The notes under the pieces were generated by a model that was not told where the DNA came from, did not search any database, and saw only the letters and a list, made by a program, of their open reading frames with translations. DNA of 64,000 nucleotides, taken from contig NZ_FXYF01000014.1 of assembly GCF_900184945.1 (NCBI RefSeq), positions 62,001-126,000 on the forward strand, given 5' to 3'. Below are positions 2-62,142 of this stretch, in pieces; the stretch's first letter is position 1; each line of letters begins with the position of its first letter. This stretch comes from Antarctobacter aquimaris. GTDB taxonomy: Bacteria > Pseudomonadota > Alphaproteobacteria > Rhodobacterales > Rhodobacteraceae. Made by a program: the position numbers and the translations under genes.

Positions 2-300
2 TCAACCGGCCGCCCCTGCCTTGCCATGCTGCCGGGTCAGAGATTGCGCCCGCACGAAGCCGATCCGCAGGGGTTCAACCATCCCGCCCGCCGCGTCCGC
101 CGTCAGCCGCAGCTCCCGGTTGCCAATGCGAAGGTTCAGCCGCGTGCCGCCGGCATCTTCGCCTACGCCGGTTTCGCGGCCCGTGGTGAAGGTGCCTGCG
201 CGCACCAGATCGCGCAAGCGCGGCTCATCAAGATCGAAACCCTGCGCGACCATGCGGCGTCGACCCGCACCCGGTCGTCGCCGATGGTCAAGACACTCAT
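2..300 (-). pseudogene. DUF6522 protein gene, frameshifted (copy 1)
   Basis: The ATG at 300-298 overlaps the stop of the upstream HTHP gene (ATGA). The first codons read MSVLTIGDDRVRVDAA and then leave frame; the family sequence resumes in another frame as MVAQGFDLDEPRLRDLVRAGTF from 253 down to the TGA at 4-2. Aligned to the intact homologue at 60846-61163, the two pieces join exactly if one base is restored near 254-255, so I infer a 1-nt deletion or a sequencing error. The ending (LNLRIGNRELRLTADAAG) matches the family. DUF6522 is a small cytosolic domain of unknown function. The downstream fragment could only be made from an internal start. Confidence 0.75.
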
Positions 301-530
301 TTCACGGCGCGCCAGTGGTCATTGGCCGCCGCAATGGTGGCAAAATGGATGGCCACCACATGCGACACCGCGATCAGCGCGTCGGCGTCAGCCTCGTAAT
401 CCTTGCGCAGCTTGTCGCGGATGGCGGCATCGGGCTGGGTCTTTTTCACCGCAATCCGGGCCAGCTTGACCGCAAGGTCATAGCCTTCGCTGGGGGTCGG
501 CGTGATCAGGCTGGGCAGCCAGTTATCCAT
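297..530 (-). CDS. Hexameric tyrosine-coordinated heme protein (HTHP), copy 1
   Basis: The 77-residue protein matches HTHP in length and sequence (WLPSL..TP.EGYDLAVKLARIAVKKTQPDA). Tyr45, the residue at the position of the heme ligand in the structurally known Silicibacter pomeroyi protein, and Arg25 are both present. Characterised HTHP is a hexamer with weak peroxidase and catalase activity; its physiological role is not settled. The gene follows ccoS with its start inside the ccoS coding region (overlap 523-530) and overlaps the DUF6522 start by ATGA, so it is the penultimate gene of the cco operon. A second copy lies at 61160-61393. Confidence 0.9.
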   Translation of the reverse strand: MDNWLPSLITPTPSEGYDLAVKLARIAVKKTQPDAAIRDKLRKDYEADADALIAVSHVVAIHFATIAAANDHWRAVK

Positions 531-702
531 GTGATGTCTCCTTTTGTGTCGGATTGGCAGGTGTGTCGGGGGCGGTCAGGATGCGCCGGGCATCGCCGTC
601 GGGGTCGTCGTACTGGTCGTGGCGCAGGCTCCAGAAGAACGCGGCAAGACCGATCAGGCCCATACCGATGGCAACGGGGATGAGGAACAGCGCGCCGGTC
701 AT
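523..702 (-). CDS. ccoS: cbb3-type cytochrome oxidase assembly protein CcoS
   Basis: The 59-residue protein has one N-terminal membrane helix (LFLIPVAIGMGLIGLAAFFW) followed by the CcoS-type stretch SLRHDQYDDPDGDARRIL. CcoS is needed for heme and copper insertion into cbb3 oxidase. The ATG at 702-700 overlaps the TGA of the DUF2189 gene (ATGA). Its place downstream of ccoNOQP supports the call. The other usual maturation genes ccoG, ccoH and ccoI are not in this window. Confidence 0.85.
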   Translation of the reverse strand: MTGALFLIPVAIGMGLIGLAAFFWSLRHDQYDDPDGDARRILTAPDTPANPTQKETSHG

Positions 703-1523
703 GGCGTTGCGGAGTCCTGCCGGGCGGGATCGGCGTCGGGGCGCAGCGCCTGCCAGGCGTGCCAGGTGCCATGACCCAGGAGCGGAAAGACCACGATCAG
801 GCCCAGAAGGCCGGTGGCCACGGAAAACGCAAAGCCCGCAACGACGATCCCGCCCCAGGGCAGCACCGCCCGCAGGTTCTGCGTGGTCAGGGCGAAACTG
901 GTGCCAAGTGCGGTCAGCGCATCGGTGCGTACCGACAGCAGCATCGGGATCGAGAACAGGCTGATCGCCATGGCGAAGGCCGCGAACAGCCCGCCGATCG
1001 CCGAGCCGGTCGCCACCAGCGCCCAACCGCGCGGTGTGGTCAGCAGTTGCGCCAGGATCTGATCGAAGCCCGGAAACGGCAGCAGCCCGAAAAACAGCGC
1101 ATAGAGAAGATCGGCGGCCCTCAGCCACAAGACGACCAGAAGGCACAGGAGCAGTCCCGCGAACAGAACCTGCCCGCCCGAGGCCGGGCGCACCAGAACC
1201 ATGTCGGACAATCGCACCGCCTTGCCCGCGGCATGGCGGCGGCTCTTTTCATAGAGGCCGATGGCAAGGATGGGGCCGACCACCAGAAACCCCGAAAGAG
1301 CCGGGAAGATCAGCCATGGCAGGCCCACCGCGACCATCGCCCAGATCACCAGCACCGAGGCCAGGAAAATGACCAGCCCATAGCCAAGGCTGGGCCATGG
1401 GGCGCGGCGCAGGTCACGCCAGCCGGCGGCAAGCCAGCTGAACGCTGCCCCGGTCGGCAGCTGGCGCGCATAGGGGCTGGCACGATGCTGAAGCGGCTCG
1501 ACGGCGGGAAGGGGTTCAAGCAT
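699..1523 (-). CDS. DUF2189 multi-pass membrane protein
   Basis: The 274-residue protein has about six hydrophobic segments (for example LGYGLVIFLASVLVIWAMVAV and LFAGLLLCLLVVLWL) and the family pattern SWLAAGWRDLRRAP..SLGYG near residue 30, and it ends with GHGTWHAWQAL. DUF2189 proteins are integral membrane proteins of unknown function. The gene sits inside the cbb3 operon between a 54-residue TM protein and ccoS. A strong ribosome binding site, AAGGAGG, lies just before the start. A role in oxidase assembly or membrane protection is inferred from position only. Confidence 0.8.
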   Translation of the reverse strand: MLEPLPAVEPLQHRASPYARQLPTGAAFSWLAAGWRDLRRAPWPSLGYGLVIFLASVLVIWAMVAVGLPWLIFPALSGFLVVGPILAIGLYEKSRRHAAGKAVRLSDMVLVRPASGGQVLFAGLLLCLLVVLWLRAADLLYALFFGLLPFPGFDQILAQLLTTPRGWALVATGSAIGGLFAAFAMAISLFSIPMLLSVRTDALTALGTSFALTTQNLRAVLPWGGIVVAGFAFSVATGLLGLIVVFPLLGHGTWHAWQALRPDADPARQDSATP

Positions 1524-1534
1524 TCATGCCTCCT

Positions 1535-1699
1535 TCAGCAGCCTGGTTTCGCGGCGGCGTGTTCGGGATCGACCTGGACACAGCCGGGATGGGACGCCAG
1601 CGCGAGGGTCACGAACTGCCAGTTGGCAGCGATGACCAGCGCCAGGAAAGCGGCAACGCCCAGGCCTATCGGCAGTTTCGCGCCCCGCACCACGCTCAT
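1535..1699 (-). CDS. Small single-TM protein in the cbb3 operon
   Basis: The 54-residue protein starts with an ATG overlapping the ccoP stop (ATGA). One membrane helix runs from about residue 10 to 33 (IGLGVAAFLALVIAANWQFV), followed by a short tail with two cysteines (HPGCVQVDPEHAAAKPGC). The first Cys-Pro region suggests metal or heme handling, but that is only a guess. It lies where ccoG/ccoH/ccoI genes often occur, yet is too short for FixH/CcoH. I do not recognise a named family. Confidence 0.6.
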   Translation of the reverse strand: MSVVRGAKLPIGLGVAAFLALVIAANWQFVTLALASHPGCVQVDPEHAAAKPGC

Positions 1700-2562
1700 G
1701 GCGCAGCTCCCGACAGGTCCTGGACGTAGAGTGCCAGCATCCTGATCTCGGCCTCGCTCAGCCGGTCGGTCCAGGCGGGCATCACGCCTTGCCGGCCGTT
1801 CATCAGCGTTGTGTGGATTGCATCGGCGTCGCCGCCATACAGCCAATCGGCATCGGTCAGGTTCGGGGCGCCCTGATCCGTCATCCCGCGCGCATCCTCG
1901 CCGTGGCAACTGGCGCAATTGTCCTGGAACAGCACCGCGCCTTCCGACGTATCGCCCGCGCGCACTCCGCCTGACAGCGTCAGCACGTAGTCGGTCAGAG
2001 CCGCAATTTCGGGCCGGGTCAGCAGCCCGTCGCGGCCAAAGGTGGGCATCTGGGAAAAGCGGGTGTCGGGATGCGGGCTGTTGATGCCGAAGCGCAGCGT
2101 TTCCGCGATCTCTTCTGCCGTACCTCCCCAAAGCCAGATATCATCCGACAGTCGCGGAAAGCCCGGCCCGCCGATACCCTTGGTGCCGTGGCAGGCCTGG
2201 CAGTTCTGGCCAAAGAGCGGCGCTGCGGTTGCCATCGCCCGCGCCATCAGGTCGGGGTCGGCGCGGATCGCCTCGAAACTTTGCGTCTCCAGCGCCGTGG
2301 TCCAATCGGCACGCGCGGCTTCAGCCTGGGCAATATCGGCGGCAACGGCGGTTTTCTGGTCAACGCCCCAAAGCCCCTTGGTATAGGTCTGGCCCAGCGG
2401 CCATGTCGGCAGCAGCACCCAGGCGACCAGCGCATAAAGATGCGTCACCACGATAAAGGCGATCACCGCCTTCGGCACCGGATTGTTCAACTCCTTGATG
2501 CCGTTCCAGTCATGGCCGGTGGTGGCCTGGCCGGTGACAGGGTCACGTTCACCTACCGACAT
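1696..2562 (-). CDS. ccoP: cbb3 cytochrome c oxidase subunit III (diheme CcoP)
   Basis: The 288-residue protein has one N-terminal membrane helix (about residues 31-52) after the typical DWNGIKELNNPVP motif, then two c-type heme sites, CQACH at about 121-125 and CASCH at about 216-220, each followed by a Met-containing loop for the axial ligand. CcoP accepts electrons from the bc1 complex and passes them to CcoO/CcoN in the inner membrane, periplasmic side. Length and motif order are normal. The start overlaps the end of ccoQ. Confidence 0.96.
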   Translation of the reverse strand: MSVGERDPVTGQATTGHDWNGIKELNNPVPKAVIAFIVVTHLYALVAWVLLPTWPLGQTYTKGLWGVDQKTAVAADIAQAEAARADWTTALETQSFEAIRADPDLMARAMATAAPLFGQNCQACHGTKGIGGPGFPRLSDDIWLWGGTAEEIAETLRFGINSPHPDTRFSQMPTFGRDGLLTRPEIAALTDYVLTLSGGVRAGDTSEGAVLFQDNCASCHGEDARGMTDQGAPNLTDADWLYGGDADAIHTTLMNGRQGVMPAWTDRLSEAEIRMLALYVQDLSGAAP

Positions 2563-2717
2563 GGCCTGTCCTCCGCGGTCAGGATCGAACGGGCGGCCCG
2601 GTCTGCGGCCGCCTTGCGCGACGGGCGATAGGTCTGGAAGACGACGATCAGGAAGAACACCATCAGGTAGATCAGGCCGACCGACTTGGCGATGAGGACA
2701 AGGGTGTCATGGCTCAT
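2553..2717 (-). CDS. ccoQ: cbb3 oxidase subunit CcoQ
   Basis: The 54-residue protein (MSHDTLVLIAKSVGLIYLMV...) has one membrane helix and a short basic tail (YRPSRKAAADRAA), typical of CcoQ/FixQ, which stabilises the cbb3 complex. Its ATG overlaps the ccoO stop (ATGA), and its stop TAG at 2555-2553 lies 10 nt inside ccoP. It is read directly from the sequence because of its small size. Confidence 0.9.
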   Translation of the reverse strand: MSHDTLVLIAKSVGLIYLMVFFLIVVFQTYRPSRKAAADRAARSILTAEDRPCR

Positions 2718-3448
2718 GGCTTGGCCTCCACTCCGGCCTGGTAGGGGGCCTGGGTCAACTGGCCCAGCACTTGCAGATAGGACACCAGCGCATCCATCTC
2801 GGTCAGCCGTGGATCGCCGTCGAAATTGCGGATGGTTGTGGCATCGCCATACCGCGCGACAACGCCGTCGGCCCGGTCGCCGTCGGGCGCTGCCTGGCCC
2901 AGGGCATCGCTATAGGCTTCGGCGATCATCTCGTCGGTATAGGGCACCCCCAGCCGCCGCAGCGTTGCCAGATGGGCGGCCATGTCGTCCACCTCCAGCG
3001 GGTTCTCGGCGAGCCAGGAATAGCCCGGCATGATCGACGAGGGCACCACGGCGCGCGGGTCGATCAGGTGGGCGACATGCCAGTCGTCGGAATACTTGCC
3101 GCCCAGGCGCGCCAGGTCCGGCCCGGTGCGTTTCGACCCCCAGAGCATCGGGTGATCGTATTGCGATTCCGCCGCCAGCGAATAGGGGCCATAGCGCTCC
3201 ACCTCGTCGCGCAGGGTGCGCACCATCTGGCTGTGGCAGGCATAGCACCCCTCGCGGATGTAGATGTTGCGCCCGGCCAGCTCCAGCGGCGTATAGACCC
3301 GCATGTCGTCGGTGGTCTCGACGGTTTCGTCGATGGTGAACAGCGGCGCTATCTCGATGATGCCGCCGACGCTGGCGGCAAGGATGATGGCCACCACAAG
3401 GCCGATCGAGTGCTTTTCGAGATTGTAGTGCAGTTTCAAGAGGGGCAT
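2714..3448 (-). CDS. ccoO: cbb3 oxidase subunit II (monoheme CcoO)
   Basis: The 244-residue protein begins MPLLKLHYNLEKHSIGL and has an N-terminal membrane anchor, one c-type heme motif CYACH at about 68-72, and YSWLAENPL with a nearby SSIMPGY Met, the CcoO hallmarks. I chose the ATG at 3448 over the upstream GTG because family members begin here and it falls 5 nt after ccoN. CcoO is the membrane-anchored monoheme subunit passing electrons from CcoP to CcoN. Confidence 0.96.
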   Translation of the reverse strand: MPLLKLHYNLEKHSIGLVVAIILAASVGGIIEIAPLFTIDETVETTDDMRVYTPLELAGRNIYIREGCYACHSQMVRTLRDEVERYGPYSLAAESQYDHPMLWGSKRTGPDLARLGGKYSDDWHVAHLIDPRAVVPSSIMPGYSWLAENPLEVDDMAAHLATLRRLGVPYTDEMIAEAYSDALGQAAPDGDRADGVVARYGDATTIRNFDGDPRLTEMDALVSYLQVLGQLTQAPYQAGVEAKP

Positions 3449-3452
3449 CGCG

Positions 3453-5078
3453 CTACTCCGCCGGTTGCGGGGCAAGCGGGCGATCCGCAGCCGCACCGCG
3501 TGGGCCGCGCACCGTCAGCCAGATGTTGACCGCACCGATCACCAGGCCCGCCAGGAACAACACACCGCCGATGAAGCGGGCGATGTAGTAGGGGCGCATC
3601 GCCTCCATGCTGTCGATGAAGGAGTAATGCAGCGTGCCCGCCGCGTTGTAGGTGCGCCACATCAGGCCCTGCGTCAGGCCAGCGTTCCACAGCGAAAAGA
3701 CGTAAGTCAGCAGCCCCGCCAGGGCCAACCAGAAATGCCATTCCACCAGCCGGGATGAATACATGCCCGGTCGTCCCCAAAGTGACGGCACCACCGAATA
3801 GAACGCGCCGAAGGTGATCATCGCCAGCCAGCCAAGCGCGCCGGAATGCACGTGCCCGACGGTCCAGTCGGTATAATGCGACAGGGCGTTGACCGGGCGG
3901 ATCGCCATGAACGACCCCTCGAACGTCGACAGCCCGTAAAACACCGCCGCCACGAACATGAACCGCAGCGTCGCGTCGTCGCGCACCCGGTGCCAGGCGC
4001 CGTTCAGCGTCATCAGCGCATTGCCCGCCGAGGCCCAGCTTGGCACCAGCAGCATGACCGAGAATGTCATGCCCAGCGTCTGCACCCAGTGGGGCAAGGC
4101 CGTGTAGTGCAGGTGGTGCGACCCCACCCACATGTAGAAGAACGTGATGCCCCAGAAACTGAGGATCGACAGCCGGTAGGAATAGATCGGCCGCTGTGCG
4201 CGCATCGGCAGGTAGTAATAGAGCATCCCCAGAAAGCCCGAGGTCATGAAGAAGGCCACGGCATTGTGGCCATACCACCATTGCACCATCGCATCCTGCA
4301 CACCCGAGAATGCCGAATAGCTTTTGGCACCGGCAAGGCTGACCGGCAGGGCCAGGCTGTTGACGATGTGCAGCATGGCCACCACCAGGATGAAGGCGAG
4401 GTAGTACCAGTTGGCGACATAGATATGCGGCTCGGCCCGGCGCGCGAGGGTGCGCAGGTACAAGACGAAGTAGACGACCCAGACGACCACCAGCAGGATA
4501 TCGGCATACCACTCGGCCTCGGCATACTCCTTGGACTGGGTAATGCCCATGAAATAGCCGGTGATCGCCCAGAGGCAGAACAGGTTGTAACCGATCAGCA
4601 CGAACCAGGGGCTGATCTGGTCCGGCAGCCGGGCGCGCGAGGTGCGTTGCATGACGTGGAAGGAGGTGGCGATCAGCGCGTTGCCGCCGAAGGCAAAGAT
4701 CACGCCGGTGGTATGGACCGGGCGAATGCGGCCATAGCTGGACCAGGCCTGGCCGAATGTCGCCTCTGGCCAGACCACCAGGGCGGCCACCCAAAGCCCC
4801 ACCGCCATGGCAAACACGCCCCAAAGCAGGGCGATCAGGATGCCGGCCTTGATCGGGTCGTCGTAGTAGTGCGACAGACGCTGGGGGTCGGGGCCGGGAT
4901 GTTCCAGCACGCCGCCCACCACAAAGACCAGCGCCACGCCCAGTGCCACCGCCATGAAGCCGTGCACCGCCATCGGGTCCTGCCGGGCGGTCGCCGCCAT
5001 GAGCAGACCAACCAGCGCCAGCAACAGGGACAATCCCATCGCCAGGCGGCGTTCCGTATGGGTCAGCGCGGCGATCAT
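3453..5078 (-). CDS. ccoN: cbb3 cytochrome c oxidase subunit I (CcoN)
   Basis: The 541-residue heme-copper oxidase subunit has about 14 membrane helices. It carries the low-spin heme and CuB histidine motifs (VHTTGVIFAFGGNALIATSFHVMQR, WWYGHNAVAFFMT, VGSHHLHYTALP) and TDWTVGHVHSGALGW near the C-terminus. It is the catalytic O2-reducing, proton-pumping subunit with high oxygen affinity. The start codon overlaps the rrf2 stop (ATGA), so the regulator and oxidase are translationally coupled. It could also reduce NO, as cbb3 enzymes sometimes do. Confidence 0.97.
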   Translation of the reverse strand: MIAALTHTERRLAMGLSLLLALVGLLMAATARQDPMAVHGFMAVALGVALVFVVGGVLEHPGPDPQRLSHYYDDPIKAGILIALLWGVFAMAVGLWVAALVVWPEATFGQAWSSYGRIRPVHTTGVIFAFGGNALIATSFHVMQRTSRARLPDQISPWFVLIGYNLFCLWAITGYFMGITQSKEYAEAEWYADILLVVVWVVYFVLYLRTLARRAEPHIYVANWYYLAFILVVAMLHIVNSLALPVSLAGAKSYSAFSGVQDAMVQWWYGHNAVAFFMTSGFLGMLYYYLPMRAQRPIYSYRLSILSFWGITFFYMWVGSHHLHYTALPHWVQTLGMTFSVMLLVPSWASAGNALMTLNGAWHRVRDDATLRFMFVAAVFYGLSTFEGSFMAIRPVNALSHYTDWTVGHVHSGALGWLAMITFGAFYSVVPSLWGRPGMYSSRLVEWHFWLALAGLLTYVFSLWNAGLTQGLMWRTYNAAGTLHYSFIDSMEAMRPYYIARFIGGVLFLAGLVIGAVNIWLTVRGPRGAAADRPLAPQPAE

Positions 5079-5497
5079 GCCGCCACCGCCCCGTCGCCGC
5101 GCAGCGCCACATCGGCCAAGGTCGAGCGGTCAAGCTCGGCCAGAAACGCCGCCTCGGCCGCGCCCAGCCGCGCCCGGAGCCGACAGCAATCGGTGATCGT
5201 GCAATCGCCCCCCGAGGCCGCGAAACATGCGACCAGTGGCTGGCCCTCTTCAAGGATGCGCACCACCTGCCCCAGCCGTATTTCTGCCGGTGGCCTTGCC
5301 AGCATCGCCCCGCCGCCGCCGCCCCGCCGCGTGGACACGATGCCGGCCTGTGCCAGTGCCGCCATGATCTTTGTCAGGTGATGGCGCGACAACGCGAATT
5401 CCTCTGCCAGTTCCGCAGTGGAAAACGCCCGGTCCGGGGCCGAGGCCAGGCGCATCAGTGCCCGCAGGCCGAAATCGGTGAAGGAGGTAAGGCGCAT
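5075..5497 (-). CDS. Rrf2-family iron-sulfur regulator, NsrR-like (copy 1)
   Basis: The 140-residue winged-helix regulator has the Rrf2 N-terminus (MRLTSFTDFGLRALMRLA), a wing with a glycine run (RRGGGGGAMLARP), and a C-terminal cysteine cluster C91, C99, C104, C105. Asp8 matches the fourth ligand known from Streptomyces NsrR. The tail LDRSTLADV is NsrR-like. I infer a [4Fe-4S] NO sensor. It is the first gene of the cco operon and faces a truncated globin, with candidate operators between them. IscR or RirA-type function is less likely. Confidence 0.85.
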   Translation of the reverse strand: MRLTSFTDFGLRALMRLASAPDRAFSTAELAEEFALSRHHLTKIMAALAQAGIVSTRRGGGGGAMLARPPAEIRLGQVVRILEEGQPLVACFAASGGDCTITDCCRLRARLGAAEAAFLAELDRSTLADVALRGDGAVAA

Positions 5498-5512: not shown

Positions 5513-5565
5513 TTGGGCATTTACAAGTGCGATTATGCAGCTTTAATAGGCATTGTAAATACCAA
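5513..5565. promoter_or_regulatory. Candidate NsrR-type operators between rrf2 and globin
   Basis: Two imperfect inverted repeats lie in the 87-nt divergent gap. The stronger, 5547-5565, reads TAGGCATTGTAAATACCAA, with 6 of 9 arm positions paired. A weaker one near 5515-5532 has GCATTT and AAGTGC arms. They resemble the clean palindrome at 61633-61651 in front of the second globin and the GCATT/AATGC sites near nsrR at 58.3 kb, and fit the general NsrR pattern of ATGCAT-like half sites. An Rrf2/NsrR protein is the likely ligand. Confidence 0.5.
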
Positions 5566-5584: not shown

Positions 5585-6028
5585 ATGGCAGCAGCGCCGC
5601 AGACACCACCAATCAAATCCGCGCGGCCGCAGATCACCGCCGACCTGATGGCACGCACCGGTCTGGACGACGCGATCCTGGTGCGCCTCGTGCATGGATT
5701 CTACGACAAGGTGCGCGCCGACCCGCTGCTTGGCCCGATCTTTGCCGCGCGCATCACGGATTGGGGTCCGCACCTCGACAAGCTGGTCGACTTCTGGTCA
5801 TCGGTCGCGCTGATGACGGGGCGTTACCACGGCGCGCCGATGCCCAAACACCTGCCGCTGCCCGTCGAGCAGGCCCATTTCGACCGCTGGCTGGCGCTGT
5901 TCCGGCAAACCGCGACCGAGGTCTGTCCTCCCGAAGGTGCGGCCTGGGTGATCGAGCGGGCCGAACGCATCGCCGCATCAATCCACATGAACATCCAGGT
6001 TGCGCGACGCCGCAGCCTTGAAACGTAA
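5585..6028 (+). CDS. Group III truncated hemoglobin (copy 1)
   Basis: The 147-residue globin has the group III signature: GFYDKVRADPLLGPIF with the B10 Tyr and CD1 region, then HLDKLVDFWSSVALMTGRYHGAPMPKH, and AHFDRWLALF carrying the proximal His. I chose the ATG at 5585 with GGAG upstream (5571); the longer open frame runs through the intergenic operators. Such globins are usually linked to NO detoxification or oxygen/peroxide chemistry. It diverges from an NsrR-like gene, which supports an NO role. Confidence 0.9.
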   Translation: MAAAPQTPPIKSARPQITADLMARTGLDDAILVRLVHGFYDKVRADPLLGPIFAARITDWGPHLDKLVDFWSSVALMTGRYHGAPMPKHLPLPVEQAHFDRWLALFRQTATEVCPPEGAAWVIERAERIAASIHMNIQVARRRSLET

Positions 6029-6879: not shown

Positions 6880-7371
6880 TCAGCCGATTTCCATTGCCGC
6901 ACCCGGTGCCGGATCCGCGTCCTCGCAAAGCAGCGTTGCGATCTCGGCGCCCAGCAACAGTTCGGGGACAGCCCCGAAATGATGCGCGCGCAGGGCGCCG
7001 GACTTGTCGAAAATCAACATGCTGGGCGTGCCGCGCATCTGGAACGCTTCCATGGTCTTTGGCAACGGTCCCACCCCCGGCGTGTCGACGCCAACCGGAA
7101 AGGTGATCCGATACTCGTGCAGGAACGCCTTCAGCGATACCGGGGTCATCGCGGCATGGTGTTCAAACACCGTGTGCAACCCAAGAACCGCCACAACCTC
7201 TCTCGGGAAGGACTGATGCACTTTCTGCGCCAGGGGCAGGCCCTGCGAAACGCAGCCCGGACACAGCATCTGAAACGCCTCGACAACAACGACCTTGCCA
7301 CGAAGGGAGGCGAGGGTGATGTCCCGGTCCGTGTTGAACCATTGGGATACGTGAAGCTCTGGCGCGGCCAT
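6880..7371 (-). CDS. Thioredoxin-fold redoxin (peroxiredoxin/TlpA-like)
   Basis: The protein has 163 residues from the ATG at 7371. The N-terminal part has QWFNTDRDITLASLRGKVVVVEAFQMLCPGC, where a CPGC pair sits at the redox-active CxxC position of the thioredoxin fold. Further family blocks are GLHTVFEHH and MRGTPSMLIFDKSG, the latter with the cis-Pro. No signal peptide is seen, so it is probably cytosolic. The substrate is unknown. It lies just downstream of the exported protein gene at 7432-8196 in the same direction and could be co-transcribed. Confidence 0.8.
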   Translation of the reverse strand: MAAPELHVSQWFNTDRDITLASLRGKVVVVEAFQMLCPGCVSQGLPLAQKVHQSFPREVVAVLGLHTVFEHHAAMTPVSLKAFLHEYRITFPVGVDTPGVGPLPKTMEAFQMRGTPSMLIFDKSGALRAHHFGAVPELLLGAEIATLLCEDADPAPGAAMEIG

Positions 7372-7431
7372 GGGTCTGGATCCTGTTTGCCGGATGAGGG
7401 AGGCTGCGCATCGCACCGCCTCCTTTCCTGA

Positions 7432-8196
7432 TCAGTCTATTCTACCCGGCAGGCTGAGGTCACCAGACGCCACATCAAAGACGTCGATCACGCAAAACAG
7501 CGGCGCGTGGATGTTCGCGTTCACGCGCAGGGCGGACGTGACGCCATCATAGGCCACGCCTGCAATCTCCACACCGCTGCGGAACGCAACATTCACAGTG
7601 ATCTCGGGCCCATCGAAGAGCGGCGTGAACCCGGGACTGTCCAGGAAGATCGGCAAGCCTGGCCATGTGGCGGGAAGCTTCGGCGTCTCGCCCGCCGGGA
7701 TGTCGCGCACCGCCAGCGCGCCTGGCCCGCAAGCGTCGGTCGGTGTGAGAACCACCCAATGGCTGTGCCAGACATTGCCGTCATTGGTCGGATCACCGTC
7801 GCTGTTTTCATCGTATAGCGGCGTGTCGTCGAAATCCGGGTGGCTGGTGGCAGCCAGGGCCAGAATGCCGGTTCCGCCCTCGAACTCTACAGCCGACGGA
7901 TCAAGCGAGGTTGGCCAGACGTAGGACAGCACGTCCGACCCACCCACTTTGCCCGTCGGCACCGGCACTTCCGACCCGGCGATCCCGTTTGTCGTCATGT
8001 GGAACGTCACGAGATTTCCATCGCGGTGTGCATGTGCGCCCAGGATGTCGAAGGCCGCGACCCTGGTTTGATCCGCCGCCGACAGGATGGCGCCGTCGTG
8101 GTGCACCGCATGGCCATGGTCGCCGTCACCGTCCGCCCATGCGGCGCCGCCGATCAGCGCCAGGCTTGTCGTGACCAGGAAAAGTGGGTGTCTCAT
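7432..8196 (-). CDS. Exported protein of unknown function, His/Asp-rich N-terminus
   Basis: The 254-residue precursor starts at the second ATG, which has AAAGGA five to ten bases before it. A signal peptide (MRHPLFLVTTSLALIGGAAWA) is followed by a metal-binding-like segment DGDGDHGHAVHHDG. Later segments include ENSDGDPTNDGNVWHSHWVVL, with acidic repeats like a Ca2+ loop and HSH. I do not recognise a characterised family. It is divergent from a MarR regulator with a nested palindrome between, so it is probably a target of that regulator; periplasmic metal binding or stress response is inferred. Confidence 0.65.
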   Translation of the reverse strand: MRHPLFLVTTSLALIGGAAWADGDGDHGHAVHHDGAILSAADQTRVAAFDILGAHAHRDGNLVTFHMTTNGIAGSEVPVPTGKVGGSDVLSYVWPTSLDPSAVEFEGGTGILALAATSHPDFDDTPLYDENSDGDPTNDGNVWHSHWVVLTPTDACGPGALAVRDIPAGETPKLPATWPGLPIFLDSPGFTPLFDGPEITVNVAFRSGVEIAGVAYDGVTSALRVNANIHAPLFCVIDVFDVASGDLSLPGRID

Positions 8197-8229
8197 GGTT
8201 CGTCCTTTCATGTAACTGCCACCCCTGTT

Positions 8230-8274
8230 AGTAGCGACTCGAAACTATTGCAATAATTATTTCGAGTCGCTACT
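8230..8274. promoter_or_regulatory. Nested palindromic operator, MarR/exported protein divergent promoter
   Basis: Two 15-nt arms, AGTAGCGACTCGAAA at 8230-8244 and TTTCGAGTCGCTACT at 8260-8274, pair perfectly. Inside the spacer TATTGCAATA at 8246-8255 is itself a perfect palindrome of the MarR-box type. The site fills most of the 80-nt gap between the two divergent genes and ends 2 nt before the marR start, so autorepression is likely. The outer arms could also form a hairpin in the 5' end of either transcript. Confidence 0.75.
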
Positions 8275-8276
8275 GG

Positions 8277-8825
8277 ATGGGCATGAAAGGCCATCTGCAC
8301 ATTCGCGAGCTGATCAACCGGCTGGCACGCCTCGATGCGGCGTCCGCGTGGGAAGGCGATTTCAACCCCACGCAGCGGGCGGTCCTGGTCTACCTTGACC
8401 GGGCCAATCGGTTTTCGAGAAGTCCGTCGCATGTTGCCGAGTACCTGGGAACGACGCGGGGAACGATTTCGCAGACCTTCAAATCGCTGCTGCAGAAGGG
8501 ATATGTGACCGAGCACCGCTCGACGCGTGACAAGCGGGCAATCCATTTCGAACTGACAGCCAAGGGCAAAGAGATCGCTCGGGGCTATGGCGGCCTCGAG
8601 CAAAGCCTGTCAAATCTGGATGCGCGGGAACAACAGGCCCTTCACGCCGCTCTCACGGCAATTCTCAAGGGCGTGCTGGACCAGAACGGCGGTCGCGCCT
8701 TTGGCGTGTGCAACACCTGCATGCACTACGAACCCTCGGGTTCCGGGGGTTTTTGCACGTTGCTGTCGGAACCGCTTTCTGCAGCGGAAACCACCCTGAT
8801 CTGCCATGAACAGGTCAGTGCCTGA
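8277..8825 (+). CDS. MarR-family regulator with C-terminal cysteine cluster
   Basis: The 182-residue protein has a winged helix in the N-terminal two thirds (LNRLARLDA, PSHVAEYLGTTRGTISQTFKSLLQKGYV, then DKRAIHFELTAKG), typical of MarR. The last 40 residues hold CNTCMHYE, GFCTLL and LICHEQ, four cysteines plus histidines spaced like a metal or redox site. No clear ribosome binding site precedes the ATG at 8277; an alternative ATG lies at 8283. I infer a redox- or metal-responsive repressor of the divergent exported protein and possibly itself. Confidence 0.85.
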   Translation: MGMKGHLHIRELINRLARLDAASAWEGDFNPTQRAVLVYLDRANRFSRSPSHVAEYLGTTRGTISQTFKSLLQKGYVTEHRSTRDKRAIHFELTAKGKEIARGYGGLEQSLSNLDAREQQALHAALTAILKGVLDQNGGRAFGVCNTCMHYEPSGSGGFCTLLSEPLSAAETTLICHEQVSA

Positions 8826-10709: not shown

Positions 10710-10967
10710 ATGATCAGGATCATGCTTTCAAATGACCGGACAGACGTCGACCTGGATCGGCTTGCAGAGGCATTCGCCACAAGCCGCAACGAATTCGAGG
10801 ACTGCATGCGTGTGGGCACAGTCACATATTGGTTCGAGTTGGGCGCCGGCAACCGCGCCACGCCGCGCCTGATCGTTCACTCGGCCAAGTCCGGAGTTCG
10901 TGTCACACTCGACAGTGTCGGGAACATCATCTCACGACGTAACGAGGATACGGAAAGCCGACCTTAG
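10710..10967 (+). CDS. DUF6522-like protein, orphan copy
   Basis: The 85-residue protein begins at an ATG with GGAG upstream. It aligns over its length with the DUF6522 protein at 60846-61163: VDLDRLAEAFATSRNEFEDCMRVGTVT against VDAQVLSRAFNLPPEDIRARMQAGQIT, and RLIVHSAKSGVRVTLDSVGNIISRR against RLTFRHQGRALRLIVDANAQILSRA. No HTHP gene is adjacent, unlike the other two copies. Function unknown. Confidence 0.65.
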   Translation: MIRIMLSNDRTDVDLDRLAEAFATSRNEFEDCMRVGTVTYWFELGAGNRATPRLIVHSAKSGVRVTLDSVGNIISRRNEDTESRP

Positions 10968-57657: not shown

Positions 57658-58098
57658 CTAGCGGTTGGATCCCCCCGCCAGGGTCTTCCCGGTCCGGATC
57701 GACTCAAGGTGGGGCACGTCGCTCCCCTGTTCCGGAGGCAACCCATAGCTCAGGCCCCGTCCGATCCGGTGCGCAAGCGCGGACCATGCCTGCGCCAGGG
57801 GCTCTGGCAACTCGCGCTCGAGCACCGCATCGAACAGCGAAAGCCAGACCGGAAAATGCGCGGCCCCGATGTTGCCTGCCGCCAAGTGGACCTGCATCGG
57901 ATTGCCGTCATAGCAGCGCTGCAACAAGAGCGCGTTGCGCCAGAACCTGCCGATCTTTTCCTCGTGCGTCGGCCAGTCGGACACATGCGCCGCAAAGATC
58001 GGCCCAAGAGCGGGGTGCGCACGGGCGCGGGTGTAGAACTGCGAAACGACCCGGTCGATCTGCGCCTCGGTGACGGCGATGCGCGGCGGCATCGTCAT
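57658..58098 (-). CDS. Group III truncated hemoglobin (copy 3)
   Basis: The 146-residue globin has QFYTRARAHPALGPIFAAHV (B10 Tyr and CD1 Phe), HEEKIGRFWRNALLLQRCYDGNPMQVH, and the proximal His in AAHFPVWLSLF. I chose the ATG at 58098, overlapping the small protein stop (ATGA), over the longer frame. It is in a pair with a small membrane protein and diverges from nsrR, so NO handling is likely. Confidence 0.88.
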   Translation of the reverse strand: MTMPPRIAVTEAQIDRVVSQFYTRARAHPALGPIFAAHVSDWPTHEEKIGRFWRNALLLQRCYDGNPMQVHLAAGNIGAAHFPVWLSLFDAVLERELPEPLAQAWSALAHRIGRGLSYGLPPEQGSDVPHLESIRTGKTLAGGSNR

Positions 58099-58250
58099 GC
58101 CACGATGATCCAGACGACAACGATTCCGACCACGGTATAGATGATCGTGTTGAACATCCAGCGGATCAGACCTGCATCCGACTCGGGGTTCACACCCAGT
58201 CGTTCGCAGCACTTGGTGCCCGGATAGAGAAACACTTCCGACAGTTTCAC
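58095..58250 (-). CDS. Small single-TM protein before globin 3
   Basis: A 51-residue protein begins at a GTG (58250) with GGAGAG upstream. The N-terminal part VKLSEVFLYPGTKCCERLGVNPES holds a Cys-Cys pair and is followed by one C-terminal helix (IRWMFNTIIYTVVGIVVVWIIVA). The stop overlaps the globin ATG. I do not recognise a named family. Translational coupling to a globin and divergence from nsrR suggest a membrane partner in NO or heme chemistry. Confidence 0.7.
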   Translation of the reverse strand: MKLSEVFLYPGTKCCERLGVNPESDAGLIRWMFNTIIYTVVGIVVVWIIVA

Positions 58251-58263
58251 CTGGACTCTCCTT

Positions 58264-58318
58264 AATAGGCATTTTCCATGCGCATTATCTATCGCTTTTA
58301 ATTGCGCATTGCAAATGC
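58264..58318. promoter_or_regulatory. Candidate NsrR operators (nsrR / globin 3)
   Basis: Two inverted repeats lie in the 80-nt divergent gap: AATAGGCAT-TTTCC-ATGCGCATT near 58264-58286 (7 of 9 arm matches) and GCATT-GCA-AATGC at 58306-58318 (perfect 5-bp arms). Both have the ATGC-like half site of NsrR boxes. One faces the small protein/globin unit, the other the nsrR start. Confidence 0.55.
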
Positions 58319-58330
58319 TAAATATTACCG

Positions 58331-58759
58331 ATGCAACTGGACAAGTTCACAGACTACGCCCTGCGCACTCTCATGACACTGGCGGTGCGCGCGCCCGAAC
58401 GGGTGTCGACCTCACAGATCGCGGCAACCTTCGGGGTGTCGGAAAACCACCTTTCGAAAGTCGCGACCCAGCTTGCCCGCGAGGGGTTTGTCATCTCGGA
58501 AAGGGGCCGCAACGGCGGTCTCACGCTTGCGCGGCCAGCAGACCAGATCCGCGTCGGCGACGTTGTCCGGGCGATGAAGCGCAACGACCCGGTGGCGGAA
58601 TGCTTTGGCACGGACAAATCCTGCCTGATCCTGCCCGCCTGCGGGTTGCGCGAGCCTCTGGCGCAGGCGCAGGACGCATTCTTCGCGACTCTGGATCGTT
58701 ATACGCTGGCTGACGTCACCCGCTCCCGACGCGCGCTTGCCTCCCTGTTGGGCGCGTGA
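58331..58759 (+). CDS. nsrR: NO-sensing Rrf2 regulator NsrR
   Basis: The 142-residue protein has MQLDKFTDYALRTLMTLA with Asp8, HLSKVATQLAREGFV (HTH), GRNGGLTLARP (wing), and Cys91, Cys98 and Cys104 in ECFGTDKSC and LPACGL, the NsrR [4Fe-4S] ligand pattern, followed by LDRYTLADV. It represses NO-stress genes until NO destroys the cluster. It is the only complete NsrR in this half; copy 1 at 5075 is a close relative. Confidence 0.9.
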   Translation: MQLDKFTDYALRTLMTLAVRAPERVSTSQIAATFGVSENHLSKVATQLAREGFVISERGRNGGLTLARPADQIRVGDVVRAMKRNDPVAECFGTDKSCLILPACGLREPLAQAQDAFFATLDRYTLADVTRSRRALASLLGA

Positions 58760-59105: not shown

Positions 59106-59810
59106 CTACAGGAACCCGTCCTCGTCCAGCCCCCGCACCACGCGATCCGCCATGTTGGCGCAGCGCATCCCGTCGAAGGGAAAGATCGCGTCGAACCCGC
59201 CCTTCACACGCCGCTCCAGATCGGCCCGCAGCCACCGTCGCGCGCGAAACAGGCGTGTCTTGACGGTGATCGGGTTGAGGTCGAGGTCGCGTGCGATCTC
59301 CTTGCCCTTCATGCCTTCGGCCTCGCTCATGACGAAGACCAGCCGCAACTCCGGCGGCAACCCGGCGACCGCCTGCTCCAGAAGATCCCGCAACTGGTGC
59401 CGCCCCAGCCGCGCCTCGGCAGTCTCGGATGCCTGCCCCGGGAAGGGCAGGACGGACATGGCTTCGCTTTCGGTCACAGTATCGTACTCTTCTTCGGGGC
59501 GTTGCCGACGCTGGTGCATCAGCGCGGTGTTGATCGCGATGCGGGTAATCCAGGTGGAAAACGCGGACTGGCCCCGGAACTTGTCCAGCGTCTTGAACGC
59601 TGCCATGTAGGTGTCCTGCACCACATCCTCGGCCTCGGCGTCGCTGGAGACGATGCCGCGGGCCACCCGGAAGAGGCGCGGGTTGTTGCGGCGGATCAGC
59701 TCGCGCACCGAATCCTCGGACCGCGCCAGCGCCGCAGCGATCAGGTCGGCCTCGCGCGCCTTGCGGATCGGGGCCGGGTCATGAGGTCTGACTTTGGAGG
59801 CCGCGGTCAT
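59106..59810 (-). CDS. ECF-type RNA polymerase sigma factor
   Basis: The 234-residue protein has sigma region 2 (RLFRVARGIVSSDAEAEDVVQDTYMAAFKTLDKFRGQSAFSTWITRIAINTALMHQRR) and region 4 (LEQAVAGLPPELRLVFVMSEAEGMKGKEIARDLDLNPITVKTRLFRARRWLR). The C-terminal tail holds a single Cys (FDGMRCANMADRVV). The start overlaps the cupredoxin stop (ATGA). No anti-sigma factor gene is adjacent, unless the upstream exported proteins serve as signal. Confidence 0.88.
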   Translation of the reverse strand: MTAASKVRPHDPAPIRKAREADLIAAALARSEDSVRELIRRNNPRLFRVARGIVSSDAEAEDVVQDTYMAAFKTLDKFRGQSAFSTWITRIAINTALMHQRRQRPEEEYDTVTESEAMSVLPFPGQASETAEARLGRHQLRDLLEQAVAGLPPELRLVFVMSEAEGMKGKEIARDLDLNPITVKTRLFRARRWLRADLERRVKGGFDAIFPFDGMRCANMADRVVRGLDEDGFL

Positions 59811-60334
59811 GGCGCTTCCCCTTTCACGATCCAGCCCTTGGCGAGGATCTCCTCCATCGACGGAAAGGCGGCAAGGATTTCCGGGTCGAGGTCGTCGCTT
59901 TCCTGCGCCGGGCCTTGCCAGCCGGGATCGCCGGGCCGTCCCACAACGATCCGCCCGACCATGCCGGCCATCTCGTGCGGGATGCAGTAGTAGTCATAGA
60001 CGCCGGGCACGGTCAGCGTGACCTCAAAGCTGTCGTCGGGCAGCAGGAAGTCGCTGTCCCAGGGCGTTGCCTTTGCAGGGATGCGCGACAGGCGGTCGAA
60101 AACCTCGGGGTGGTAGGCGGTGGAGGTATGGCTGTTGCCGGGGTCGCGATTGATGAACCGCAGGGTTGTGCCCACGGCAACGGCAAGCCCCATCGGCGCG
60201 AACCAGACCCGTTCGCCGCGCGCGGTGCCCTTCATCTCGACGGTCTCGACCGGGGCGGCGGGCAGCAGGCGCGGGAACCCGAGGGCGGCAAGCACGCCAC
60301 CCCCGAGCATCAGGACTTGTCTGCGCCGGGCCAT
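59807..60334 (-). CDS. Exported plastocyanin/azurin-type cupredoxin
   Basis: The 175-residue protein has a twin-arginine-like signal (MARRRQVLMLGGGVLAALGFPRLLPAAP). Copper ligands: His in GNSHTST, and Cys, His, Met in YYCIPHEMAGMVGRI, a type 1 site. It is probably a periplasmic electron carrier. It starts at the ATG inside the upstream stop (TGATG) and overlaps the ECF gene. Confidence 0.88.
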   Translation of the reverse strand: MARRRQVLMLGGGVLAALGFPRLLPAAPVETVEMKGTARGERVWFAPMGLAVAVGTTLRFINRDPGNSHTSTAYHPEVFDRLSRIPAKATPWDSDFLLPDDSFEVTLTVPGVYDYYCIPHEMAGMVGRIVVGRPGDPGWQGPAQESDDLDPEILAAFPSMEEILAKGWIVKGEAP

Positions 60335-60753
60335 CACTCGGCGAGCCTCGATTTGGCCTCACCGTCATGGAACAGCACAACGTGGGCATGCGGCTTTTCC
60401 ACGCCGGGGTGGCCGGCATTGTAGTAGATGTCGACCGAGGTCACCGTGGAATTGCCCAGGCCCAGCCCGTCATAGGCGGTGCCGTTTTGCAGCTCTTCCA
60501 GCGGCGTCATGTAGATCGTGGCCGAAAGCTTGCCGTCGCGGTCATAAGCCAGGAATGGCCCCGCGGGCAGCGCCTCGGGATTGACGAAGAGCGTGCCGAG
60601 ACCGGGAATGAATTCCGGCAGGGGCAGCGCATCGCTGACCTGGATGTAGGGTTCGCCCGGAGGTGCCATTTGCAGGGCCTCGTCATCCTGCGCCAGGGCG
60701 CTGCTGGCGGAAAAGGCGAGGACGGTCGCGGCGATCAGGGATAAAGATTTCAT
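60334..60753 (-). CDS. Exported protein of unknown function
   Basis: The 139-residue precursor has a signal peptide (MKSLSLIAATVLAFSASSALA, then QDDEALQMAPPG). The mature part shows FLAYDRDGKLSATIYMTPLEELQNG and ends HPGVEKPHAHVVLFHDGEAKSRL; the His cluster may bind metal. I do not recognise a characterised family. It is encoded directly before the cupredoxin gene and overlaps it. Confidence 0.75.
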   Translation of the reverse strand: MKSLSLIAATVLAFSASSALAQDDEALQMAPPGEPYIQVSDALPLPEFIPGLGTLFVNPEALPAGPFLAYDRDGKLSATIYMTPLEELQNGTAYDGLGLGNSTVTSVDIYYNAGHPGVEKPHAHVVLFHDGEAKSRLAE

Positions 60754-60845: not shown

Positions 60846-61163
60846 TCAGCCTTTCCCTGGTGTCGTCGGGCCGTTTGCAGGGTCGGAGCCCGCCCGTCCC
60901 TCGGCCGGTGGTTGGCTTACCGGAAAGGTCGCGCGGCTCAGGATCTGGGCATTGGCGTCCACGATCAGCCGCAGGGCCCGGCCCTGGTGCCGGAAGGTCA
61001 GCCGCCAGCGGCCCGCATCCTCGCCCTCGCCCGTTTCGCAGACAGAGGTGATCTGACCGGCCTGCATGCGGGCGCGGATGTCCTCGGGCGGCAGGTTGAA
61101 GGCACGGGACAGCACCTGCGCGTCCACGATGAACTGTTCCCCGTCGTGCTCGACCTCGCTCAT
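60846..61163 (-). CDS. DUF6522 protein (intact copy 2)
   Basis: The 105-residue cytosolic protein has VEHDGEQFIVDAQVLSRAFNLPPEDIRARMQAGQITSVCETGEGEDAGRWRLTFRHQGRALRLIVDANAQIL. Its ATG at 61163 overlaps the HTHP stop (ATGA), the same arrangement as at 297-300. Function unknown; the consistent linkage suggests partnership with HTHP. The last ~25 residues are a Pro/Gly-rich tail. Confidence 0.85.
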   Translation of the reverse strand: MSEVEHDGEQFIVDAQVLSRAFNLPPEDIRARMQAGQITSVCETGEGEDAGRWRLTFRHQGRALRLIVDANAQILSRATFPVSQPPAEGRAGSDPANGPTTPGKG

Positions 61164-61393
61164 GACTTGTCGCGCCAATATCCGTTCGCCGCGGCGACCG
61201 TGGCGAAATGGGTGGCAACGATCTGGCTGATGGCGATCAGGGCGTCGGAATCCTCGGCATACTCGGGGCGCAGCCGGTCGCGCACCTCGGCATCCGGTTG
61301 CGTCAGCTTCACCGCCACGCGCGCGAGTTTGACGGCAAGCTCATAGCCCTCTTGGGGCGTTGCGGTGGTGAGGGTGGGCAGCCATGCTGTCAT
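61160..61393 (-). CDS. Hexameric tyrosine-coordinated heme protein (HTHP), copy 2
   Basis: The 77-residue protein (MTAWLPTLTTATPQEGYELA...) keeps Tyr45, the heme ligand position, and Arg25. About two thirds of positions match copy 1. AAAGGA precedes the ATG at 61393. It heads a leftward chain HTHP-DUF6522-exported protein-cupredoxin-ECF sigma and lies behind an rrf2 remnant. Confidence 0.9.
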   Translation of the reverse strand: MTAWLPTLTTATPQEGYELAVKLARVAVKLTQPDAEVRDRLRPEYAEDSDALIAISQIVATHFATVAAANGYWRDKS

Positions 61394-61431: not shown

Positions 61432-61612
61432 TCAGGCCGCCGCCACGCCCGGAAGCGCGGTATCGGCAAGGGTCGGTCTTTTCTCGTCCGGAGTGAATCG
61501 GATCTCGGCCTGCCGCCGCCGGGGTCAGGTTGACGACAAAGGCCCGGTCCGGCGCGCTGGCCACGCGCATCGGCATCCGCAGACCGCAATCGGCAAAATT
61601 GGTGGGATCCAT
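61432..61612 (-). pseudogene. Rrf2 regulator remnant with internal deletion
   Basis: The start MDPTNFADCGLRMPMRVASAPDRAF matches the N-terminus of the intact Rrf2 at 5075-5497 (MRLTSFTDFGLRALMRLASA..). The end, in another frame, is TLADTALPGVAAA then TGA at 61434-61432, matching that protein's C-terminus (STLADVALRGDGAVAA). About 95 codons in between, including the cysteines, are missing. It sits in the same relation to globin and HTHP as copy 1 does to globin and the cco operon. Confidence 0.75.
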
Positions 61613-61632
61613 CGCGTCTTCGCCGTCATGAA

Positions 61633-61651
61633 TTGGTATTTGAAATGCCAA
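61633..61651. promoter_or_regulatory. Palindromic NsrR-type operator before globin 2
   Basis: TTGGTATTT-G-AAATGCCAA has 9-nt arms with 8 matches. It is in the 86-nt gap between the rrf2 remnant and the globin. It matches the imperfect copy at 5547-5565. With the local rrf2 deleted, control would have to come from NsrR at 58331 or Rrf2 at 5075. Confidence 0.65.
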
Positions 61652-61698: not shown

Positions 61699-62142
61699 AT
61701 GTCATCCGCCGGCCCCGAAATCCCCTCCGCGCGTCCGGATCTGACCGCCGAAATCATGGCGCAGACGGGATTGAACGGGGCCAAGCTCATCGAACTGGTG
61801 AATGGGGTCTACGACCATATGCGCGCCGATCCGAAGCTTGGCCCGAACTTCGACGCCCGCATTTCGGATCGGGGCCCGCACCAGCAGCGGATGGTGGCCT
61901 TCTGGTCGTCGGTCGCGCTGATGACCGGCCGAGACCACGGGTCGCCCATCCCGGCGCATACCGTCCTGCCCGTGACCCGGGATCTTTTCGGCCGCTGGCT
62001 GGCGCCGTTTCGCAAGACCGCCCATGACGTCTGTGCGCCCGAGGGTGCCGCGCATGTCATCGTGCGGGCCGAACGGATCGCGCGGTCCCTGCATATGGCG
62101 GTCGCGAATGCAAAGCCCGGAAACGCGCCGTCGCTGTCGTGA
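61699..62142 (+). CDS. Truncated globin copy 2, lacking the proximal His
   Basis: The 147 residues equal copy 1 in length and align throughout: MAQTGLNGAKLIELVNGVYDHMRADPKLGPNF, FWSSVALMTGRDHGSPIPAH. At the proximal position copy 1 has AHFDRWL but this copy has DLFGRWL, so the heme-binding His is Leu. A conserved Phe is Val and a Trp is Arg (SDRGPH). Heme binding is doubtful. GGAGG precedes the ATG at 61699. Confidence 0.88.
   Translation: MSSAGPEIPSARPDLTAEIMAQTGLNGAKLIELVNGVYDHMRADPKLGPNFDARISDRGPHQQRMVAFWSSVALMTGRDHGSPIPAHTVLPVTRDLFGRWLAPFRKTAHDVCAPEGAAHVIVRAERIARSLHMAVANAKPGNAPSLS

Follow-up and report, generated by a model that had tools for sequence, protein, structure and literature searches.

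Do HTHP, a heme protein with a solved structure, and DUF6522, a domain without an assigned function, form a dedicated protein pair, or do they belong together as members of a larger gene set? This question is raised by a stretch of 64,000 nucleotides from Antarctobacter aquimaris (the whole stretch is called the window here), for which the first-pass annotation had reported two HTHP genes, each followed by an overlapping DUF6522 gene, and had proposed a two-protein heme system. The presence of HTHP at both sites was borne out, since both copies (77 aa each, minus strand) score above the curated PF11534 cut-off of 25 bits, with 129.3 bits for copy 1 (297-530) and 133.1 bits for copy 2 (61160-61393). 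Copy 2 also matches the HTHP of Silicibacter pomeroyi (PDB 2OYY) over 73 residues with an E-value of 9.5e-32. Like this protein, both copies possess Tyr45 and Arg25, as read from the translations, and each of these residues is kept in 62 of 65 distinct HTHP stretches. The distal arginine of HTHP carries the number 25. According to the available parts of two papers, Tyr45 is the proximal (axial) heme ligand of HTHP (PMC7864044) and the heme site includes a distal arginine (PMC4813847). The crystal structure has been known since 2007, going by the reference lists of both papers, and the accessible text of both treats HTHP as an electrode protein or building block without assigning a role (PMC4813847, PMC7864044). 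The HTHP literature that we found comprises reviews and papers on electrochemistry and assembly as well as one genome report, next to many papers in which the acronym stands for something else; its available portions give no role. What distinguishes the window HTHPs from the S. pomeroyi protein is their placement in operons with a regulator, a globin and DUF6522.

The statement that a DUF6522 gene follows each HTHP gene holds for copy 2 but only partly for copy 1. DUF6522 copy 2 (60846-61163, minus strand) is an intact ORF of 105 aa, which starts inside the HTHP stop (ATGA) and covers positions 1-86 of the 88 positions of the PF20132 profile (125.7 bits, E 6.2e-37). The same ATGA junction occurs at position 300 in front of copy 1 (2-300, minus strand), and the overlap reported for 300 and 61163 is thus present at both junctions. 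However, the frame starting from the ATG at 300 runs into a stop after 45 codons, whereas the conserved body of copy 1 (2-253) is found in another frame and covers only profile positions 18-82 (E 8.2e-15), so that no intact or full-length DUF6522 ORF exists there. The alignment with the intact relative at locus L122 (genome G251) has one single-base gap, in the window sequence near 254-257, and additionally one three-base gap. Since start and body lie in different frames and one base is missing in comparison to L122, the overlap signal at copy 1 comes without an intact gene; DUF6522 copy 1 is broken in this assembly, or the assembly contains an error. We also considered a programmed frameshift, but L122 is in frame without one and no slippery run was noticed, and we therefore prefer to explain the broken frame by a lesion or an assembly error. 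A third, diverged DUF6522, which is absent from the first-pass annotation, lies at about 10710-10967 on the plus strand (PF20132, 45 bits, cut-off 25). Its nearest relative in the DUF6522 tree, at L076 (G141), adjoins genes for Rrf2, a RIC-type hemerythrin and NnrU.

How often the two genes go together was analysed in a sample of 292 genomes of the order, among which 34 possess HTHP (35 loci) and 72 possess DUF6522. In fourteen of the latter, DUF6522 was matched solely within a long Nfu-type protein, and these genomes were set aside, 12 of them after retrieval and inspection, G090 and G213 on the basis of ORF length and the profile range covered. This leaves 58 genomes with an unfused DUF6522. 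HTHP and unfused DUF6522 occur together in 21 of the 292 genomes, that is in 21 of the 34 genomes with HTHP, compared to an unfused DUF6522 in 37 of the 258 genomes lacking it (Fisher p 9e-9; Fisher and Poisson values throughout ignore kinship). This co-occurrence is a point in favor of a dedicated heme system, in which DUF6522 would bind HTHP and load, reduce or protect its heme. On the other hand, DUF6522 is located directly downstream of HTHP on the same strand at only 15 of the 35 HTHP loci of the order (10 of these 15 with ATGA; both window copies counted in both numbers), and the remaining 20 loci without such a neighbor speak against an exclusive pairing. The two genes are thus not usually adjacent, as would be expected of a dedicated pair, whether counted from HTHP (15 of 35 loci) or from DUF6522 (24 of 80 loci, see below). 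The first-pass annotation had itself named this outcome, genes that are usually apart, as one that would refute its proposal, although the co-occurrence is far above chance. Moreover, in a sample of 349 genomes of the phylum, with HTHP in nine and DUF6522 in 16, only the window's own genome possesses both, and therefore no sampled genome outside the order combines the two. An ORF in which HTHP and DUF6522 are fused was not present among the gathered loci (domain matches of less than 50 residues left out). Overall, the link between HTHP and DUF6522 is significant, but it is not exclusive.

Whether DUF6522 follows HTHP depends on the setting. Adjacency was found at 11 of 16 HTHP loci with Rrf2 or globin genes nearby and at both loci with NnrS or nos genes, compared to none of five loci in a MarR-c26(-AhpC-like) setting and two of 12 in other settings; taken together, these are 13 of 18 loci in the Rrf2/globin or NnrS/nos setting versus two of 17 in the others (p 5e-4). 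The second HTHP setting, with MarR and c26, was observed at L114, L121, L126, L134, L135 and L260, in all cases except L121 with an AhpC/TSA-like gene. A cluster of this kind is also present in the window at 6880-8825, where it comprises a MarR gene with a Cys-rich tail, c26 and an AhpC/TSA-like gene but no HTHP; the c26 protein of the window has no Pfam or NCBIfam match.

HTHP and DUF6522 copy 1 stand at the end of an operon with the order Rrf2 - ccoN - ccoO - ccoQ - ccoP - small ORF - DUF2189 - ccoS - HTHP - DUF6522 on the minus strand. Its first gene encodes an NsrR-like Rrf2 regulator (5075-5497; NCBIfam NsrR 113.7 bits, cut-off 182), followed by a CcoN-like subunit I (3453-5078; PF00115, 359.6 bits), a CcoO-like subunit (2714-3451; order as in L144, with the ATG inside the listed ORF 2714-3496), a CcoQ-like small subunit (2553-2717; an ORF, likewise in the order of L144) and a CcoP-like subunit (1696-2562), which was assigned by gene order and by similarity to the annotated ccoP from a Thioclava nitratireducens plasmid. 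The DUF2189 membrane protein (699-1523; PF09955, 118.3 bits) and CcoS/FixS for cbb3 oxidase maturation (544-711; PF03597, 63.6 bits) complete the cco part. A truncated globin is encoded divergently (5585-6028, plus strand; PF01152, 29.0 bits, cut-off 21), and a putative NsrR-like operator, GGCATTGTAAATACC, was found by motif match between the Rrf2 and globin genes (5549-5563). A complete cbb3-type oxidase set is encoded at 699-5497 together with an NsrR-like regulator and an operator of its own; this cassette is conserved in 14-15 of 80 DUF6522 loci and possibly represents an oxidase used under NO.

Copy 2 also faces a gene for a truncated globin (61699-62142, plus strand). This protein yielded no match in a Pfam search at E 0.1 and was assigned by our own clusters and HMM, which group it with the globins of these loci. 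The second putative operator, GGTATTTGAAATGCC, is located between this globin gene and the HTHP operon (61635-61649; motif match). Each HTHP operon therefore faces a globin gene across a palindrome (at 5549 and 61635), and the earlier observation that NsrR-like sites and globins accompany both copies proved correct. What it had missed are two Rrf2 remnants in front of HTHP copy 2 on the minus strand, detected by searching three short frames with the Rrf2 HMM: an N-terminal part (61538-61621; E 5.3e-10), in which 16 of 22 residues are identical to the Rrf2 protein of copy 1, and a C-terminal part with a weak match (61438-61521; E 4.9e-4). These sequences are most simply explained by an Rrf2 gene that copy 2 formerly possessed and that an internal deletion mostly removed. 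The operator at 61635 is kept although most of the Rrf2 gene seems to be deleted. Thus, the damage affects different genes in the two copies: copy 1 kept the regulator and lost DUF6522, while copy 2 kept DUF6522 and lost the regulator. A second NsrR-like Rrf2 regulator is encoded at 58331-58759 (plus strand; PF02082, 120.2 bits; NCBIfam NsrR, 122.9 bits, cut-off 182), with a third globin gene in divergent orientation (57658-58113, minus strand; PF01152, 18.9 bits, just below the cut-off of 21) and an operator-like site with two mismatches, CGCATTGCAAATGCT, at 58305-58319. Downstream of copy 2, the region 59106-60753 (minus strand) contains an RpoE-like sigma factor ORF, a cupredoxin gene (PF00127) and a gene for a small protein that matches neither Pfam nor NCBIfam models; in Roseibium aggregatum (L146), genes for a plastocyanin-like protein, a small hypothetical protein and a sigma factor likewise adjoin HTHP-DUF6522.

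Both complete regulators belong to the Rrf2 fold family, with 103.0 and 110.5 bits for the superfamily model (cut-off 73.3). NsrR is the best of all NCBIfam models for both of them, yet with 113.7 and 122.9 bits they stay below the equivalog cut-off of 182, and we therefore name them NsrR-like and regard NO as their presumed signal only. Three C-terminal cysteines are readable in both proteins and may correspond to the cysteine pattern of the NO-sensitive Fe-S cluster in the NsrR family.

For a broader view, we used 80 named DUF6522 loci, obtained by scanning 84,980 species genomes with a ten-sequence DUF6522 alignment, a search pattern that favors HTHP- and Rrf2-linked members; some of these loci belong to genomes already included in the 292-genome sample. 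The operator pattern GGYATTTNAAATRCC was derived from the two window sites and afterwards searched in these loci. If up to two mismatches are allowed, the pattern is found in 30 of the 42 divergent globin regions, which span 8,790 bases (only 42 of the 80 loci offer a usable region of this kind), compared to 25 sites in the remaining 1.11 Mb, which corresponds to an approximately 150-fold higher density if kinship is ignored. GGTATTGTAAATACC is the most frequent form. A looser pattern, picked after seeing the sites from the first search, gave 56 sites with at most one mismatch, 48 of them at most 400 bases away from the start of an Rrf2 or globin gene, whereas a base-shuffled control gave seven sites. 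A conserved palindrome as expected of an NsrR operator thus appears to be present at the putative target promoters, and the link to globins, NsrR-like sites and NO genes, which had been suggested from the window, is conserved across loci.

Among the 80 loci, Rrf2 genes are present in 54, globin genes in 46, RIC-type hemerythrin genes in 36, NnrS in 26, HTHP in 24, NnrU in 19 and CcoN in 14, while 12 loci have none of the families looked for (labels that do not come from Pfam are based on our own HMMs, built on clusters of these loci). RIC is the name that we presume for the hemerythrin, which one record annotates as DnrN/NorA. RIC (repair of iron centres) and NnrS are thus neighbors of DUF6522 in 36 and 26 of the 80 loci, respectively, but no relation of DUF6522 to either of them was seen in sequence or predicted structure. 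The setting shared by these loci is, as far as it can be read from the DNA, an NsrR-like operon with a divergent globin gene, the operator GGTATTGTAAATACC, Rrf2, optionally the cbb3 set, optionally HTHP, and DUF6522. The full operon is found on a named replicon in Thioclava nitratireducens, and in Roseibium aggregatum, a member of another order, the same operon is located on a named replicon as well. HTHP is optional in this arrangement: a Fuscovulum ytuae plasmid carries globin and Rrf2 genes with DUF6522 but no HTHP, three genomes of another family have the same combination, and DUF6522 follows Rrf2 in the absence of HTHP on a Chelatococcus daeguensis plasmid. In Methylocystis heyeri, plasmid-borne DUF6522 stands beside Complex I-type and other genes, with no NO genes in view. 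On plasmid pMaD6 of Marinovum algicola (L145, 4846-5252), a shortened HTHP (profile 24-72) is followed by an unannotated DUF6522 stretch with an adjoining transposase gene; globin, DnrN and NnrS genes lie on the other side.

This gene set resembles known NsrR regulons in its Rrf2 regulator, its palindromic operator and its targets, which include a globin, a RIC/DnrN-type hemerythrin and nnrS neighbors. It differs from them in the operator GGTATTGTAAATACC, in regulators that score below the NsrR model cut-off and in having the cbb3 oxidase, HTHP and DUF6522 among its members. In the available part of a reconstruction from 2005, NsrR orthologs are described as absent from alphaproteobacteria save one strain (PMC1274295). 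We found no description of this operon when searching the literature for NsrR regulons that include cbb3, NnrS or truncated globin in this group. From operator, regulator and neighborhood, it is very probable that HTHP and DUF6522 belong to an NsrR-like (Rrf2) NO-stress regulon.

DUF6522 also occurs in settings other than this operon. At five loci (L058, L080, L086, L091, L094) it is located between nnrS and norD/norQ-type genes, with nnrU present at four of them (Pfam NnrS, NnrU, VWA and CbbQ_C were run on representatives); NorD is the name that we presume for the VWA protein. At six loci of one genus it lies behind ferrochelatase on the same strand, with 26-96 bases between the matched stretches (Pfam on one locus). 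Finally, at 13 fetched loci DUF6522 is a domain of a larger protein with the order Nfu_N - NifU - DUF6522 - C-terminal part (Pfam on four loci). A GGCQGC motif is present in all 13 of these fusions, and all 13 adjoin an Mrp/NUBPL ATPase fused to a GBBH-like domain (Pfam on one locus), while a MarR gene occurs in 10 of the 13 stretches (Pfam on one locus). This corresponds to the known association of Nfu/NifU Fe-S carriers with Mrp ATPases, with DUF6522 placed behind Nfu_N and NifU in an Mrp operon; the window DUF6522 differs from the fused forms in being free-standing and without a CxxC Fe-S motif. The fusions at L064-L075 and L077, which adjoin the Mrp-GBBH_N fusion, have an extra C-terminal domain with a weak similarity, below the cut-off, to the DNA-binding domain of O6-methylguanine methyltransferase. 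The MarR protein of the c26 setting clusters with that of the Mrp-Nfu-DUF6522 operon. Our literature search on Mrp, Nfu and DUF971 with MarR gave no description of this operon among the papers listed. In a DUF6522 tree from 156 sequences and 76 columns, in which 74 of 153 inner branches are unresolved, the Nfu-fused members form one clade and the ferrochelatase-linked members form another, so that each of these two associations represents a single evolutionary event.

The gene directly upstream of DUF6522 in the 80 loci is Rrf2 in 33 cases, HTHP in 24, a distant cupredoxin in five and none that was recognised in 18. The first-pass annotation had described the overlap as a conserved feature of the HTHP-DUF6522 pair. 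It is indeed conserved where HTHP precedes DUF6522 (four-base overlap in 22 of 24 pairs), but it is not specific for HTHP, since it also occurs in 17 of 34 Rrf2-DUF6522 pairs (p 0.001 for the difference between the two frequencies), including those on the Fuscovulum and Chelatococcus plasmids. Rrf2 being the commonest direct upstream gene, and often an overlapping one, one could assume that DUF6522 modulates the Rrf2 regulator, as an anti-repressor or a cluster-loading partner, and is kept adjacent to it by translational coupling. However, in the nnrS-norD clusters and beside ferrochelatase DUF6522 has no Rrf2 neighbor, and the Nfu fusion is likewise without Rrf2, with a MarR gene in the place of the regulator, which makes a modulator of this kind quite improbable. 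Another explanation would be plain operon packing, so that overlap and adjacency mean nothing functional beyond shared transcription. This would agree with the Thioclava operon, where four of nine junctions are four-base overlaps, and with the DUF6522 genes that are broken beside HTHP, namely copy 1, whose HTHP is intact, and the one in genome G245, which contains an internal stop. Against it speak the conservation of the arrangement across orders and the repeated re-association of HTHP and DUF6522, as HTHP linkage has to change 16 times in the best tree, with at least three of these changes forced by well-supported branches. We therefore give packing alone only a small chance of being the whole explanation. 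The tighter overlap with HTHP than with Rrf2 speaks for some HTHP-specific link, and the consistent overlap together with the repeated regain of the linkage keeps the idea of a dedicated heme pair alive as a minority view.

Across the 156 DUF6522 sequences, conservation of at least 92% is reached by Glu, Gly, Asp, Gly and Arg. Neither Cys nor His nor Tyr dominates any column, and the most Met-rich column has 70% Met. The lack of an invariant residue of a heme- or metal-ligand type argues against a conserved heme-ligand role. In one column, Cys is present in 83% of the HTHP-linked and 56% of the Rrf2-linked members, whereas the ferrochelatase-linked members have Ser and the Nfu-fused ones mostly Thr. 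This difference, like the ferrochelatase neighbor in one genus, would suit a heme partner, but the cysteine of the HTHP-linked members may reflect mere kinship. In addition, apo-HTHP takes up heme in vitro without needing a partner, according to the available text of one study (PMC7864044). In view of the wide partner range and the missing invariant ligand, a dedicated heme-loading partner of HTHP, as proposed in the first-pass annotation, has become less likely, and we now consider it unlikely.

The structure model of DUF6522 copy 2 (residues 1-86; pLDDT 90.6, pTM 0.79) predicts two short strands and two helices followed by four long strands. A winged-helix or other DNA-binding protein, which the sequence had first suggested by an apparent helix pair and wing, does not agree with this predicted order and found no supporting match with Foldseek. 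A Foldseek search of the PDB with two DUF6522 models returned no match at E 0.001 or better, and a second look by structure alignment gave Z 5.0 (5cnl_A, rmsd 3.7, 68 residues) and Z 5.3 (7ui9_a, rmsd 3.7, 62 residues), a level that is common according to the tool's own note; cystatin- or NTF2-like chains appear among the matches at an equally low level. In a profile search of solved sequences the best match comprised 33 residues (8vd6_A, E 0.005), the rest being weaker. None of these structural matches points to a function. Our literature search found no paper with DUF6522 or PF20132; a candidate lead toward DUF6522 are NnrR-dependent short hypothetical genes such as bsl3211, mentioned in the available part of one study (PMC6710368).

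The explanation that we favor, and hold to be somewhat better than an even bet, is that HTHP and DUF6522 are members of one regulon and that DUF6522 is not specific for HTHP. Their proximity would then be explained by common membership in a gene set that is apparently switched on by nitric oxide. An NsrR-like repressor would sit on GGTATTGTAAATACC, between the truncated globin gene and the regulator's own operon. When NO damages the Fe-S cluster of the regulator, globin, RIC-type hemerythrin and NnrS/NnrU would be released, followed in some strains by an entire additional cbb3 oxidase set, and after that by HTHP and, last, DUF6522. HTHP would be a soluble heme protein and react with NO or peroxide. 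DUF6522, a small protein with a predicted helix pair and beta-sheet made from the 3' end of the operon, would help other proteins to keep or regain their iron cofactors, which means Fe-S clusters and perhaps heme, with HTHP as one possible client and not the sole partner. The operon order, the operator pattern, the co-occurrence, the Nfu fusion and the ferrochelatase neighbor can be read from the genomes; NO as the signal, the binding of the regulator to the operator and the role in cofactor upkeep are what we infer beyond them.

The range of partners, from the regulator and HTHP to ferrochelatase, NnrS and Nfu, fits poorly with a heme chaperone for HTHP only, whereas it fits an iron-cofactor helper under NO stress. 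The argument for such a helper is guilt by association, partly with associations that arose in single evolutionary events, and we propose iron-cofactor upkeep as the role of DUF6522 only tentatively, at well below even chances. Somewhat more doubtful is a wider reading, in which DUF6522 would be a general iron-cofactor upkeep domain that alphaproteobacteria under NO stress have joined to different clients, namely as a free-standing protein behind HTHP and NsrR-like regulators, behind ferrochelatase in one genus, and fused to Nfu in the MarR-Mrp-Nfu operon; HTHP would then serve this NO-repair system as a heme client or as a heme store.

If true, this wider reading would give HTHP, a protein with a solved structure but without a role, a physiological place. 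The idea of a private two-protein heme system is corrected by the present results. From the Nfu-DUF6522 fusion, iron-cofactor repair emerges as a concrete hypothesis for a domain that has no assigned function, and a single operator-defined NO-stress regulon that would hold both HTHP and DUF6522 makes the roles of these two orphans testable.
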